Assembly: GCF_019218285.1 (NCBI RefSeq)
Contig: NZ_JAHUZG010000001.1
Coordinates: forward strand, 62,001 to 126,000
DNA length: 64,000 nucleotides
Direction: 5' to 3'
Source: Antarctobacter sediminis
Lineage (GTDB): Bacteria > Pseudomonadota > Alphaproteobacteria > Rhodobacterales > Rhodobacteraceae
The translations under genes were made by a program, and so were the position numbers. Below the pieces are notes generated by a model. It was not told the DNA's origin. It was given only the letters and a program-made list of their open reading frames with translations, and ran no database searches. Every line of letters begins with the position of its first letter. The first letter of the stretch is position 1. This document shows, in pieces, positions 7,603 through 62,958 of the stretch.

Positions 7603-8616
7603 TCAGTAAGCCACACCGGCCTGTGCCAGCGCATCCAGCAACTGGTCCAGCGCGGCCTGCGGGTCGTCCAGATCATCGGCCACGTCGGCCATCCAAGCGT
7701 CGCGGATCGGCAGGCTGGCGGCGATCCATTCGGCCTGCGCCTCGGCGGGTATGTCGAAAAAGACGTGGCGGTCATCGCTCTCGGCGAGGATCTGGTTGGC
7801 CTCTGCCTCCCAGTCCGACCACATGCCGTTGATCCGCTCGGACCATTCCGGGGTGCAATGGGCATCAACGGCGGCGCGGCCCTGTTCGGACAGCCGGTCA
7901 TAGCTGCGCTTGTTGAACACCACGGCGGCGGGCACCGCGTAAAAGATCATCTGCTGATGGTAAAAGACCGAGCGATCCATGCCAAAGGGGATCAGGGTAC
8001 GGGTAGGAAAGGCGATACCGTCCAGCATACCCCGGTCAAAGGCCTGTTGCGCCTCCGGGGCCGGGATGGCCACGGGTACAGCACCAGCATCGGTGAAATA
8101 CTTGGTGACCAGCGTGCCCGCCGGACGCATTCGCAAGCCGGCGATCTCGGCGTAGTGCACCACTTCGCGGTCTTTGAAAGACAGTTTGCCGTTCGGTGCC
8201 ATTGTGACAAAGCAGAACTTGGTCTCTGACATCTCTTCGTCGGCATATTGCGCATACCATTCGTGGAATACGCCCGAAGCCTTGGCGGCATCGGTGGTCA
8301 TGAAGGGCATTTCCATCGCCGCGAAGATCGGAAAACGACCGGGTTCGAAGGCGGGCACTGCCCATGTCAGGTCGGCGATGCCGTCGCGCGCCATGTTGTA
8401 ATGGTCGCGCGGGTTGCCCAGCTGGCCCGAGGGATAGAGATCCACCTTGATTTCGCCGCCCGAGGCATCTTGTAGCGACTCCATCCAGGCCTTGAACCCC
8501 GGCGTGGGGTGGGTGGTTTCGGGCACCCATGTGCCAAAGCGCAGGGTGGTTTCTGCGGAGGCCGTGGATGTCATCATCAAGGCAAAGGCGCCCGCGGTGA
8601 GAAACTTGGTCAGCAT
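7603..8616 (-). CDS. dctP: TRAP transporter substrate-binding protein, DctP family
   Basis: A 337-residue periplasmic solute receptor. The first 22 residues form a signal peptide ending near STASAET, and the mature part begins TTLRFGTWVP, the usual DctP opening. A conserved arginine around GLRMRPAGT is in the place that clamps a carboxylate in this family. The ATG at 8616 is preferred over one 12 bases upstream, because the upstream ATGGAGGAG is itself the ribosome site. First gene of the dctPQM-AKR-MFS operon, with the motif at 8642-8664 just upstream. It suggests that the island takes up a carboxylated substrate. Confidence 0.94.
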   Translation of the reverse strand: MLTKFLTAGAFALMMTSTASAETTLRFGTWVPETTHPTPGFKAWMESLQDASGGEIKVDLYPSGQLGNPRDHYNMARDGIADLTWAVPAFEPGRFPIFAAMEMPFMTTDAAKASGVFHEWYAQYADEEMSETKFCFVTMAPNGKLSFKDREVVHYAEIAGLRMRPAGTLVTKYFTDAGAVPVAIPAPEAQQAFDRGMLDGIAFPTRTLIPFGMDRSVFYHQQMIFYAVPAAVVFNKRSYDRLSEQGRAAVDAHCTPEWSERINGMWSDWEAEANQILAESDDRHVFFDIPAEAQAEWIAASLPIRDAWMADVADDLDDPQAALDQLLDALAQAGVAY

Positions 8617-52432: not shown

Positions 52433-52586
52433 GGTCGCCCCCTCCATCGGTTGGTTCGACACAAAAACGCACGCGGCGGGCGGTCCATCCCTGCAATCCG
52501 CGGGAAGGGGCGAAAAATATTTTTGCAAATTTTTGGATGAAGCAGCCGGTTCGTGCGTATTCGGTTATATCACAGAGGAGACGGAT

Positions 52587-53096
52587 ATGGGTGGACGCGA
52601 GGAACTTGAGCGCCGGTTGTCAGACTACGTGAAAAGTTTGCGACGCTATGCGCTTGTTCTCACGCGAGACGGGGATGCCGCAGAGGATCTTGTGCAGGAA
52701 ACCCTGACCAAGGCAATTGCGGCGTCCGACAGTTGGCAACCGGGGTCGGACATGCGTGTCTGGCTGTTTCGGATCCTGCACAATACGCATGTCAGCGACA
52801 TGCGTCGCGTGCGGGTGCGGGAAAACGCCAAGCTGATGTTGCCCGAACCCGTAGAGGAAACCGATCCGACAAAGAGGCTGGAACTTCAGCAGGTGCTGGA
52901 TGCGCTTGAGGAACTGCCCGAACCGCAGCGCCTGCCCATTGTTTTGGTCGCGCTCAAGGAAATGAGCTATGCGGATGCGGCCCAGACGTTGAACGTGCCG
53001 CTTGGGACGTTCTACAGCCGGTTGGCGCGTGGCCGCGAGGCGCTTCGCAAGATCATGGCGGGCGTGAAATCCACCAAGCTCAAACTGGTCGTATAA
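52587..53096 (+). CDS. RpoE-like ECF sigma factor
   Basis: A 169-residue group IV sigma factor. Region 2 shows GDAAEDLVQETLTKAI and the DNA-melting stretch MRVWLFRILHNTHVSDMRR; region 4 is EMSYADAAQTLNVPLGTFYS followed by RLARGREALR. AGAGGAG is seven bases before the ATG. The next gene, 11 bp on, encodes the anti-sigma factor. Its target promoters were not identified. Confidence 0.93.
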   Translation: MGGREELERRLSDYVKSLRRYALVLTRDGDAAEDLVQETLTKAIAASDSWQPGSDMRVWLFRILHNTHVSDMRRVRVRENAKLMLPEPVEETDPTKRLELQQVLDALEELPEPQRLPIVLVALKEMSYADAAQTLNVPLGTFYSRLARGREALRKIMAGVKSTKLKLVV

Positions 53097-53107
53097 GGAG
53101 AGAACGA

Positions 53108-53902
53108 ATGACCCCCAGCGATACGATCGACATTCATTCCTACCTTGACGGCGAGCTTGGCCCCGAAGAAGCGGCGGCCATCGAAGACCGGCTTGAAAAC
53201 GATCCCGAGGCGCGCGCCCGGCTGGAAGCCATGGCGCGGCAAAAGGAACTGGTGGGCGCAGCCCTGACCGGCGTCGCCGGGACGCAGGCGGAAAACCTGC
53301 GCACGGCCCGGCTTGAACGGCGTCTGGCCGCGGCCCTGCACCGGCGGATCGCACCGCGCCGCGCGCCGATGTTCGTCGAGACATGGGGCCGCAAGGCCGT
53401 GCAGATCGCGGCGGCCTGTGCACTTGTCAGCTTTGGCTGGTGGGGCCACGCGCTTTGGTCTCCGGGTGCGCAGGGTATCCCGGAATACGTGTCCGAGGCC
53501 GTCGGTGCCCATCGTGTCTTTGCCGAAGACAGCCTGCGCCCGGCTGAGTTCATCGGCAATGACGTTGACACGGCCGCGGCGTGGTTCTCGAACAAGATGG
53601 GGGTGCCGGTGGATGTCCCGGACCTTGTTGCCTTCAACCTCAATCTTGTCGGGGCGCGTCTGCTTGGCACCAAGGAAGGCCCGCTGGCGCAGTTCATCTA
53701 TGAAGATGCCGGTGGAAACAGGTATTCCCTGACGCTTGCGCGGCACCCTGTCGAACGACCGCTGGAACCCTTGCAGGTTGTCGATTACCCGGATCGCTCG
53801 GTTGGCTACTGGAGCACGACAAACATCGATTTCGCGCTGGTCGGAAACCGGGATGCGCCCGTGGTCAAGGATCTTGCCATGACGCTGGCCAGCGTGGATT
53901 AA
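53108..53902 (+). CDS. Membrane anti-sigma factor
   Basis: A 264-residue protein encoded right after the ECF sigma factor. The N-terminal cytoplasmic part starts DIHSYLDGELGPEEAAAIED, an anti-sigma fold; a membrane helix follows near residues 95-115 (AVQIAAACALVSFGWW), then a periplasmic domain. The zinc anti-sigma motif HxxxCxxC is absent, so redox release through cysteines is unlikely. It holds the sigma factor until an envelope signal acts. Confidence 0.9.
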   Translation: MTPSDTIDIHSYLDGELGPEEAAAIEDRLENDPEARARLEAMARQKELVGAALTGVAGTQAENLRTARLERRLAAALHRRIAPRRAPMFVETWGRKAVQIAAACALVSFGWWGHALWSPGAQGIPEYVSEAVGAHRVFAEDSLRPAEFIGNDVDTAAAWFSNKMGVPVDVPDLVAFNLNLVGARLLGTKEGPLAQFIYEDAGGNRYSLTLARHPVERPLEPLQVVDYPDRSVGYWSTTNIDFALVGNRDAPVVKDLAMTLASVD

Positions 53903-53923
53903 CTGACCGAACCGGCCCGTATC

Positions 53924-53962
53924 GAAAAAACACCGCCCGTTCCGTCCGGGCGGTGTTTTTTC
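53924..53962 (+). terminator. Intrinsic terminator of the sigma/anti-sigma operon
   Basis: CACCGCCCG and CGGGCGGTG form the core stem, extended by A6/T6 to 16 bp, with a seven-base loop. The A-tract and T-tract make it usable from either side. It starts 22 bp after the stop codon. Confidence 0.9.
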
Positions 53963-54061
53963 GTTTTTGCCCGGATGAAAGCCGAGGCGCGAGCGTTTTC
54001 CTGACATGAGCGCGGGCCGGGCAGGTTTGACCCCCATGGCAGGCAACGAAAGATGGGCCGA

Positions 54062-54220
54062 TACCGGTTCGCCGTGATCCCCTGCGGGACAGGCTACGAA
54101 CGGCTGCCACCGGTCCAACCGCAAGACTCGCGTTCTGCCCGGCGAAGCGTCCTCCGTCCCTTGTCCCTCCGGCGCTTCGCGACTTGGGGGTCGGTCTCCT
54201 CCGGGCCGGCCCCCTTTTTT
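54062..54220 (+). ncRNA. Candidate anti-Shine-Dalgarno small RNA (cuckoo/CcsR-like)
   Basis: In the 500-bp gap without a gene, two stem-loops stand in tandem. The first pairs 54142-54149 with 54173-54180 (GCGAAGCG/CGCTTCGC) around a loop holding CCTCC twice. The second pairs 54186-54194 with 54206-54214 around a loop reading CTCCTCC, and runs into six T as an intrinsic terminator. Tandem hairpins exposing CCUCC are the mark of the alphaproteobacterial cuckoo RNAs, such as CcsR1-4 of Rhodobacter sphaeroides. A weak TTGACC (54027) with a -10-like AAAGAT suggests a start near 54062; the 5' end is uncertain. Confidence 0.55.
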
Positions 54221-54403
54221 ACGGTTTCTTAGGGATGAAATCGCGCGCCGGGGCGTAATTTCACCAAAGGCGCGGCGCCAAGGGCGCGCGTGTCGGTCTG
54301 AGCACAAGACCACAGGGTCCGGGCCCCTCTGACAACCGACGGCAGCCGGTTGTGATGTCGGAACCTTCCACCAGCGCCATCCGAGGCTGCCGAAGGAGGT
54401 TCG

Positions 54404-54970
54404 ATGAACGTAAGACATGATTTCATTCCTTGTCCGCAGCCGGTGCAATCGGCGCCGGCGACGGTGCCGGGCATCAAGGGGGCCTTGGGTGCAGGCCGCC
54501 TGCGTTCGGCCCTGTTTGCCGCCGGCGGTCTGACGGCGATCTGGGCCGGCCTGCACTGGTCCGATCCGGCGAGCTGGATCATCGGTGTGCCGACCATCCT
54601 TCTGGGCAGCGCCTCGACCCTTCTGTTGCCCGCCAGCCCGCCGCCCCGTCTGTCTGTCCGGGGGGCTTTTCGGTTCGCGGGGTTTGCAGCGCGCGGGATC
54701 ACCTTGGGCGCGGTCGATGTCACCCGGCGCAGCCTGCGCCCCGAACTGCTGAACGCCGGTTGCCTGACCTTTCACACGCGCCTGCCGCAGGGCCGCCCGC
54801 GCCGGATGTTCGCGGTGGCCATCACCTTGCTGCCGGGCACGCTGACCAAGCGGATGGACGACGAAACCCTGATTGTTCACGCGCTGGATGCCGGGCCGGC
54901 CACGATGCGGGAACTGACCGAACTGGAGGACCGCGTCGCCCAACTTTTTGGACTTGAGGAAATGGAATGA
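54404..54970 (+). CDS. mnhE: Mrp-type cation/proton antiporter subunit E
   Basis: A 188-residue MnhE/MrpE protein with two hydrophobic segments near the start and the conserved RSLRPELLNAGCLTFHTRLP and ITLLPGTLTKRMDDETLIVH. GAAGGAGG lies just before the ATG. It leads an eight-gene operon (E, F, G, B, C, D, D, D) in which every junction overlaps. Confidence 0.92.
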   Translation: MNVRHDFIPCPQPVQSAPATVPGIKGALGAGRLRSALFAAGGLTAIWAGLHWSDPASWIIGVPTILLGSASTLLLPASPPPRLSVRGAFRFAGFAARGITLGAVDVTRRSLRPELLNAGCLTFHTRLPQGRPRRMFAVAITLLPGTLTKRMDDETLIVHALDAGPATMRELTELEDRVAQLFGLEEME

Positions 54971-61488: not shown

Positions 61489-62958
61489 TTGGCCAAGGGA
61501 ACTGATCCCAAAGGTAAGAAAGGTTTGCGCGTGCAGCAGGCGATTGAAAACTATGCCGAGATGATCCGGGATTTTTACAGCGATCCGCTGGAACCGCTTT
61601 CAGAACAGTTCATGTTCCGGCGTCCCCCGACCATCGGTGAGCTGCGACGGCCACCGCAGGTCTTGTTGCTGGGCAACCATTCCTCGGGCAAGTCGACTTT
61701 TGTGAATTATCTCGTTGGCGAGGATATCCAGAAAACGGGCGTGGCCCCCACCGATGACAGTTTCACCATCGTGACTTGGGGGGCGGCGCTGGCGGATCGG
61801 GACGGGCCATCGGTGGTCAGCAACCCGGACCTGCCCTACGAGGGGTTGCGCCATTTTGGCGACCAGCTTGTCAGCCACGTGCGCCTGAAACAGCGCCCCG
61901 CCGAATTGTTGCAGACGGTGACACTGATCGACAGCCCGGGGATGATCGACGAAGCCAAGGCCGAAGGCGGGCGCGGCTATGATTTTCCCGGAGCTGTGCG
62001 CTGGTTTGCGGAACGGGCCGATCTGGTCATCGTCTTCTTCGACCCGGACAAGCCGGGCACCACCGGCGAGACGCTACAGGTTTTCAAAGAGGCCCTGAAC
62101 GGCATCGACCACAAGCTGTTGATCGTCATGAACAAGATGGATCGCTTTCGCAACCTGCACGATTTCGCCCGCGCCTACGGGGCCTTGTGCTGGAACCTCG
62201 GGAAGGTGATTCCGCGCAAGGACCTGCCGCTGATCTACAACACCTATGTTCCCGTGGCGGGGCAGCCGGTTTCAGATCTGCCGACGGCGGATTTCGACAG
62301 CGCGCGAGCGGAACTGGTGACCGAACTGTACCGTGTGCCGACCCGCCGCCTGGACAACCTGATCACGCAGATGCAGGGATTTGCCGAACGGCTGCGCCTG
62401 CATGTCTTTGTGATCGACGCCGCCGCGCGCCGCTTTCGGCGGTTGCGCAACCGCTGGCGATTGTCGCTGGGGGCGCTCTTTGCCGGGCTGTCAGGCGCCG
62501 CTGTGGTGACCGGACTGATCATTGCGCTGCCGGTTGTGGCGGCTGTCTTGGCAATGCTCGTGGCCATCGTGGAACTGGTTGTCTTGCCGAAGACGCGCAA
62601 GCGGATGGTCGCGCGGTTCGACGATGTCTTTGAGCGCATCTATGAAAGGGAATTGCTGGTGCGCGACCGGGCCGAGGATCTGCGGGCCTTGTGGGCAGAG
62701 GTTTTGCCCCGCGCGCGCGACGTTGCGATGAAATGCGGCCTGCAATCCTTTCCAAGGTTGTCGCGGTCAGACCGCATCAAGCTGGATGAATTGATCGACG
62801 AAGCCATCCCCAAGCTGCGCAGCGATCTCTACGGCCATTTCAACGCAAAGGAGGGCAGCGTCGAACCGCTGGACACTTACCTGTCCGGTCTGTCGGAGGA
62901 CATGCCGTCCGACAAAGGCGAGCTTTCCCCGGACTGGCGGGGCCGCAAGGCTGGCTGA
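61489..62958 (+). CDS. Dynamin/EHD-like GTPase with a membrane hairpin
   Basis: A 489-residue protein. The P-loop is GNHSSGKST at 62-70, G3 is DSPG at 148-151, and G4 is NKMD at 215-218; the order and DPDKPGTTGETLQVF resemble the EHD branch of dynamins. Two hydrophobic helices follow (about 325-365), then a helical tail. The start is uncertain: TTG at 61489 has AAGGGG about eleven bases upstream, and GTG at 61531 has AAAGG closer. No ATG is available. Bacterial relatives remodel membranes. Confidence 0.85.
   Translation: MAKGTDPKGKKGLRVQQAIENYAEMIRDFYSDPLEPLSEQFMFRRPPTIGELRRPPQVLLLGNHSSGKSTFVNYLVGEDIQKTGVAPTDDSFTIVTWGAALADRDGPSVVSNPDLPYEGLRHFGDQLVSHVRLKQRPAELLQTVTLIDSPGMIDEAKAEGGRGYDFPGAVRWFAERADLVIVFFDPDKPGTTGETLQVFKEALNGIDHKLLIVMNKMDRFRNLHDFARAYGALCWNLGKVIPRKDLPLIYNTYVPVAGQPVSDLPTADFDSARAELVTELYRVPTRRLDNLITQMQGFAERLRLHVFVIDAAARRFRRLRNRWRLSLGALFAGLSGAAVVTGLIIALPVVAAVLAMLVAIVELVVLPKTRKRMVARFDDVFERIYERELLVRDRAEDLRALWAEVLPRARDVAMKCGLQSFPRLSRSDRIKLDELIDEAIPKLRSDLYGHFNAKEGSVEPLDTYLSGLSEDMPSDKGELSPDWRGRKAG

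Follow-up and report, generated by a model that had tools for sequence, protein, structure and literature searches.

A rare RNA unit ending in two hairpins, probably controlled by an ECF sigma factor, at the Mrp antiporter locus of Antarctobacter sediminis

Background

Cuckoo RNAs (CcsR/ar14) are stress-induced sRNAs by which mRNAs are silenced at their ribosome-binding sites. Criteria for the family were drawn from the Rfam title and from the available parts of two articles (PMC10253847 and PMC10746234), and CUCCUCCC in the hairpin loops is one of them. In the former, CcsR is described as cotranscribed with a DUF1127 gene at the CIN1 locus, and a figure legend assigns the ccaF1-CcsR promoter of Rhodobacter sphaeroides to RpoHI/RpoHII; in the latter, ar14 consists of three hairpins carrying CCUCCUCCC. 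R. sphaeroides also has Pos19, a 219-nt RNA that belongs to the regulon of RpoE, an ECF-type sigma factor; the article title (PMC5036791) calls Pos19 a small coding RNA. As far as the available text of PMC8844928 goes, AbcR1/2 carry C/U-rich anti-Shine-Dalgarno motifs, one of which is UUCCCCUC. For the ECF26 regulons of Sinorhizobium meliloti, Table 1 of PMC6180224 gives promoters with a GGAAT-type -35 and a CGT-type -10 element, and one sRNA appears there as an RpoE6 target. The RNA reported here is not described in the titles and abstract openings of the open-access papers listed on ECF sigma factors and Mrp antiporters, on ECF sRNAs of the Roseobacter group or on GGATGAA.

Map of the locus

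The window, the whole 64,000-nucleotide stretch of Antarctobacter sediminis DNA analysed here, contains the following features around the two hairpins, termed H1 and H2.

52535..52558, + strand: ECF-type promoter motif GGATGAA-N14-CGT of the sigma gene (same motif at the sigma genes of the related loci L068, L071, L072 and L081)
52587..53096, + strand: ECF sigma factor gene, 169 aa (Pfam Sigma70_r4_2 and Sigma70_r2 and TIGR02937, all over cut-off)
53108..53902, + strand: gene of a probable anti-sigma factor of 264 aa (matches below cut-off, E ~1e-6, to anti-sigma models of NCBIfam)
53923..53963, + strand: terminator-like hairpin 3' of the anti-sigma gene, 17 pairs and then a T run
53973..53996, + strand: ECF-type promoter motif of the RNA unit (putative RNA start, by estimate, near 54005)
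54005..54220, + strand: predicted RNA of ~216 nt (bounded by promoter motif and terminator)
54142..54180, + strand: hairpin H1 with C/U-rich loop (fold and alignment tests)
54186..54220, + strand: hairpin H2 and six T, intrinsic terminator with CCUCC loop (fold and T run)
54233..54256, + strand: ECF-type promoter motif of the antiporter operon (motif scan)
54311..54370, + strand: terC RNA leader, RF03067 (51.3 bits against a cut-off of 39.9)
54404..54970, + strand: first antiporter gene, MNHE subunit, 188 aa (PF01899, 64.8 bits)

The 264-aa protein has no match in Pfam; its assignment as a probable anti-sigma factor also rests on the position of the gene and on relatives annotated as anti-sigma factors. 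A coding reading of the hairpin region, based on a 59-aa ORF at 54053-54232, was rejected, as this ORF runs across the terminator and has no Pfam match. Small ORFs lie near the estimated RNA starts, one of 23 aa at ~54006 here and one of 50 aa in Pseudoponticoccus, which show no likeness by eye, and the predicted RNA may encode a tiny protein.

Folding of the hairpins

H1 is a 10-bp stem (54142-54151 paired with 54171-54180) closing a C/U-rich loop of 19 nt, with a folding energy of -16.5 kcal/mol (z -1.8, equalled by 6 of 200 shuffles). H2 is a 12-bp stem (54186-54197 paired with 54203-54214) with a loop of exactly five nucleotides, CCUCC; it folds at -24.6 kcal/mol (z -3.5, none of 200 shuffles equal) and has the makeup of an intrinsic terminator, 9 of its 12 pairs being G-C and TTTTTT following directly 3'. 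The CCUCC motif starts at 54151, 54166 and 54198, the first copy sharing one base with the H1 stem and the last forming the entire H2 loop. Taken jointly (54139-54220), the hairpins reach z -3.54 (1 of 200 shuffles), so that two hairpins with CCUCC in both loops, the second followed by six T, are real, as the sequence-only reading had stated; the fold of the full interval 54062-54220 that it delimited is ordinary (z -1.04, 28 of 200). Upstream of the hairpins, the stretch 54004-54138 folds slightly better than its shuffles (z -1.93, 5 of 200), and the predicted RNA may have a structured 5' part.

An Rfam scan over the hairpins gave no family at its cut-off. The listings at or near them, suhB/mmgR (17.5 bits) and ar7 (15.5) on the same strand and Thr_leader (25), mir-3136 and ncr1175 on the opposite strand, were far under their cut-offs and were discarded. 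The Pseudoponticoccus RNA gave nothing in Rfam at E<=1, and the hairpins of Roseivivax only sub-threshold listings, the best being Atu_C4 with 19.9 bits.

Comparison with cuckoo RNAs

The same genome supplies a positive control in the form of a DUF1127 gene followed by hairpins with 11 copies of CUCCUCCC (L087, near 35 kb of G000:C6). This canonical DUF1127-CcsR array scores up to 55.4 bits with CcsR1 (E 3.6e-12; gathering score 65.3) and up to 57.2 bits with ar14 (E 4.6e-9; gathering score 58.8), just below the gathering cut-offs.

The hairpins near the antiporter operon had been read as having the layout of cuckoo RNAs, and the tandem arrangement, CCUCC in both loops and the terminator do speak for a stand-alone anti-Shine-Dalgarno sRNA of the CcsR/ar14 type. 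However, the covariance search with the cuckoo models, which recovers the array of this genome, passes over them: neither CcsR1 (RF02791) nor ar14 (RF02344) is listed at E<=1 over 53880-54420. The whole window has no copy of CUCCUCCC on either strand, and none of the three DUF1127 matches of the genome (one of them below cut-off) lies within it, so the hairpins have no DUF1127 neighbour. Two tandem hairpins exposing CCUCC are present here, but this trait is not kept in the two relatives that share the hairpin pair, Pseudoponticoccus and Roseivivax, both of which lack CCUCC in it; among the three genomes, CCUCC is particular to A. sediminis. Our own model of the hairpin pair does list the CcsR array (25.2 and 20.5 bits), which is no sign of kinship because the model gives 26.3 bits to an unrelated window site. 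We therefore rejected cuckoo membership on the grounds of family models, the CUCCUCCC motif and neighbour genes, and consider this origin of the hairpins most improbable. A different part of the earlier proposal held up, namely a stand-alone RNA unit with a terminator and with control that is probably unlike that of the CcsR copies, to judge from its ECF-type motif as opposed to an RpoHI/RpoHII promoter.

Promoter motif and the ECF regulon island

GGATGAA-N14-CGT has five exact sites in the window, compared with 0.17 expected, and a count of five was reached by none of 100 shuffles. All five are + strand sites within 52.5-63.1 kb, upstream of the ECF sigma gene, the RNA unit, the antiporter operon and two further genes.

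61489-62958, motif upstream on the + strand: dynamin-family GTPase gene (PF00350)
63112, motif upstream: gene running off the window end (AAA_15 match below cut-off)

A sixth copy with one mismatch, at 52490, faces the DUF2333 gene on the other strand. Among spacings from 10 to 18 other than 14, only 10, 13 and 17 gave a site, a single one in each case, and the site with spacing 10 overlaps a 14-site. Genome-wide, the exact sites number 23, as against 2 with the reversed pattern; the 18 sites outside the island were judged by eye alone. The bases that follow CGT fit A/T, A/C/T, T/G at 5 of 5 island sites versus 3 of the 18 others, likewise by eye.

The RNA unit has its promoter motif (53973) in common with the sigma gene (52535). 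The motif also occurs 5' of both the sigma gene and the first antiporter gene in Pseudoponticoccus (L068), Roseivivax (L071), Octadecabacter (L072) and the SC52 plasmid pSC52_1 (L081), in a scan open to any spacing from 12 to 16; upstream of these genes the spacing is 14 throughout. Because the motif itself served to select the 24 tabulated sites, part of their uniformity was built in, whereas their position before genes was not.

The island thus delimited (52.4-64 kb) comprises the sigma/anti-sigma pair, DUF2333, the RNA unit, the Mrp operon, the dynamin-family GTPase and the AAA-type gene, each with the same promoter motif. On this pattern, one ECF sigma factor seems to control itself, DUF2333, the RNA, the Mrp antiporter, the GTPase and the ATPase-like gene. 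Related sigma/anti-sigma pairs with the same motif are found on two Skermanella plasmids (L082 and L083), where the genes after them carry the annotations SPW repeat, DUF2333 and YqhA; this type of island exists outside Rhodobacterales.

The slot between the two promoters in related loci

Pseudoponticoccus (P. marisrubri SJ5A-1) keeps the order of the window: a promoter, a non-coding stretch with the hairpin pair after it, a further promoter, terC RNA and the MNHE gene. The RNA unit there is ~240 nt long, and two extra genes separate it from the anti-sigma gene. In Roseivivax (R. isoporae LMG 25204), the promoter at 8147 is followed by a 125-aa ORF (8237-8611) with a weak SPW match below cut-off, and the hairpin pair begins ~15 bases past its stop. 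The Octadecabacter slot, from a metagenome assembly in which errors are possible, holds a different small ORF and, across 76 aa, a stretch 51% like the protein of Roseivivax, its frame broken by two stops. By eye, the slot of pSC52_1 has neither RNA unit nor hairpin pair. The first antiporter gene is a PF01899 member in three of the four related loci, and the pSC52_1 copy is annotated as subunit E. This mnhE gene (L081, 9082-9665) looks split over two frames, as tblastn aligns it in two pieces; its first ORF, of 141 aa, has no Pfam match.

H2-type terminators, with a G+C-rich stem and a T run, are likewise present in Pseudoponticoccus and Roseivivax. The three hairpin pairs each fold better than their shuffles (0-1 of 200), and in each of the three genus pairs the hairpins align better than any of 1000 shuffles. 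With H1 only, the alignment scores were reached by 10, 2 and 38 of 1000 shuffles in the three genus pairs. Between the second promoter and terC the sequence is conserved as well (0 of 1000), while the 5' part of the unit lacks sequence conservation (168 of 1000 in the one pair tested). In the three-row alignment, 96% of the cells pair, and sliding cuts this to 45-58%; three pairs are altered on both sides, a number reached by 17 of 500 shuffles and one biased towards the consensus structure, which was written from these same three sequences. The minimum free energy fold of H1 from Pseudoponticoccus keeps six of the seven consensus pairs, with the stem base shifted. The hairpin pair is conserved in two other genera, which makes three examples in all.

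Loss of the ORF from a Roseivivax-like state would be the simplest guess for the history of the slot. One reading is that the slot is a near-empty relic: a small SPW-like membrane-protein gene would have lost its coding part in A. sediminis and Pseudoponticoccus, leaving the promoter and the 3' hairpins with no regulatory role. The Roseivivax ORF, flanked by the same promoter and hairpin pair, the Octadecabacter stretch with its two stops and the lack of conservation in the 5' part all fit such a relic, but a BLAST comparison of the 5' parts of both non-coding copies with the Roseivivax gene gave chance-level short words only, and H1 is conserved though a terminator by itself would suffice. 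We regard a functionless relic as rather unlikely. Another reading is a new family of ECF-dependent sRNAs, born from the 3' UTR of the membrane-protein gene and acting through the H1 loop: the Roseivivax pair would still follow its gene, while here and in Pseudoponticoccus the gene would be gone, leaving a free-standing RNA under the sigma factor that also serves the Mrp antiporter. We put this forward tentatively, as an unlikely but reasonable possibility.

The position of the unit directly 5' of the operon in the window, Pseudoponticoccus and Roseivivax would also fit an attenuator, in which RNA started at 53973 would sometimes read through H2 into the antiporter operon, with H1 and H2 as a switch; by eye, pairing between the C-rich loops of H1 and the G-rich arm of H2 is conceivable. 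Against this, the operon has its own promoter copy past H2, which is the only copy in SC52, and H2 is very stable. An attenuator is thus highly unlikely.

Distribution

The island is rare. A promoter pair with this spacing was found in 2 of 394 family genomes, own included. Matches to the anti-sigma protein occur in 55 of 295 family genomes, own included, and one other exceeds 60% identity. The Roseivivax isoporae locus is among the anti-sigma relatives listed, and the related loci number at least those found here. Five other genomes of the genus were compared: the anti-sigma protein matches weakly in one, the antiporter matches in none, and a model of the hairpins (R1), built from the three pairs, gave nothing above 31 bits in them. 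At E<=1, R1 listed 148 of 394 genomes. Scores above 40 bits came only from Pseudoponticoccus (81.1) and from the own genome (75.5), both of which belong to the training set of R1, and the next score was 38.7. Most of the 28 further R1 loci (L091-L118, ~110 bases each) have a terminator-like hairpin; L112 and L114 have two hairpins each, of different sequence, and the promoter motif occurs at one of the 28 (L099), on the other strand and more than 1.2 kb off.

A DNA search of 101 genomes yielded three matches besides the own one, each downstream of the hairpins. When the region was compared with plasmids, two records matched, in the terC part only, and a plasmid search with the Roseivivax 125-aa protein was without match. 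The island is possibly mobile because it lies on a plasmid in SC52.

The terC leader

In all five island loci, terC RNA (RF03067) leads the Mrp antiporter operon; the copies at L068 (4536-4596), L071 (8796-8855), L072 (7683-7743) and L081 (8988-9048) are all over cut-off. The terC RNA was found in 49 of 295 family genomes; of 30 such loci, 6 were tested downstream, where the genes encode TerC (3) or DUF475/TerC (3). The association with a cation antiporter hints at the signal to which this uncharacterised leader responds.

Proposed mechanism

The reading we favour, with fair confidence, is that a short and probably non-coding transcription unit of the ECF sigma regulon ends in the hairpins. 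Once the sigma factor is released by the anti-sigma factor, RNA polymerase would start past the GGATGAA-N14-CGT promoter at 53973 and make an RNA of ~216 nt carrying H1, with transcription stopping at the terminator H2; that such an ECF-dependent RNA is made and ends at H2 is likewise fairly probable. H2 would separate the RNA unit from the antiporter operon, which the promoter copy directly 3' of it (54233) would drive through the terC leader. The motif, the order of the parts, the hairpins and their conservation in two genera are read directly from the DNA, and it is from these that we infer transcription, sigma dependence and any action in trans. Against a dedicated RNA unit, the hairpins of Roseivivax do no more than close a protein gene at its 3' side, and the SC52 plasmid is without the pair.

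Whether the RNA acts in trans via H1 is more doubtful, and we think it somewhat unlikely. H1 is the likeliest trans-acting part because it is the sole conserved part found upstream of the terminator, and it might pair with G-rich ribosome-binding sites. When the H1 loop was paired with the ribosome-binding sites of nine local genes, it did no better than shuffled loops, 92 to 455 of 500 being equal. If the RNA does act in trans, the 3' end of a gene would have outlived the gene and become a free regulator. At the level of the locus, a wrong family label (cuckoo) gives way to a testable ECF regulon that contains a rare, probably ECF-controlled RNA unit.

Comparison with known systems

With CcsR1-4 and the other cuckoo RNAs (RF02791, RF02344, NfeR1), the unit shares hairpins with pyrimidine-rich loops, a terminator at its end and a predicted stress-type sigma control, as well as, in the Antarctobacter copy only, CCUCC in the loops. 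Unlike them, it has no CUCCUCCC, no DUF1127 gene and no family-model match, and its promoter is of the ECF type rather than the RpoHI/RpoHII type named in the figure legend cited above. AbcR1/2 resemble it in that CCCUC occurs in each of the three H1 loops, a likeness expected by chance in 21-44% of shuffled loops; as far as AbcR1/2 are described in the available text, structure and control differ. The ECF26 regulons of S. meliloti, compared by the promoter types of Table 1, resemble it in the CGT-type -10 element and in having an sRNA among their targets but differ in the -35 element, which is GGATGAA here. Pos19 differs in its sigma factor and neighbours but is near-equal in length and belongs to an ECF-type sigma regulon, a parallel by published description between two RNAs of R. 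sphaeroides and A. sediminis, the second of them predicted.
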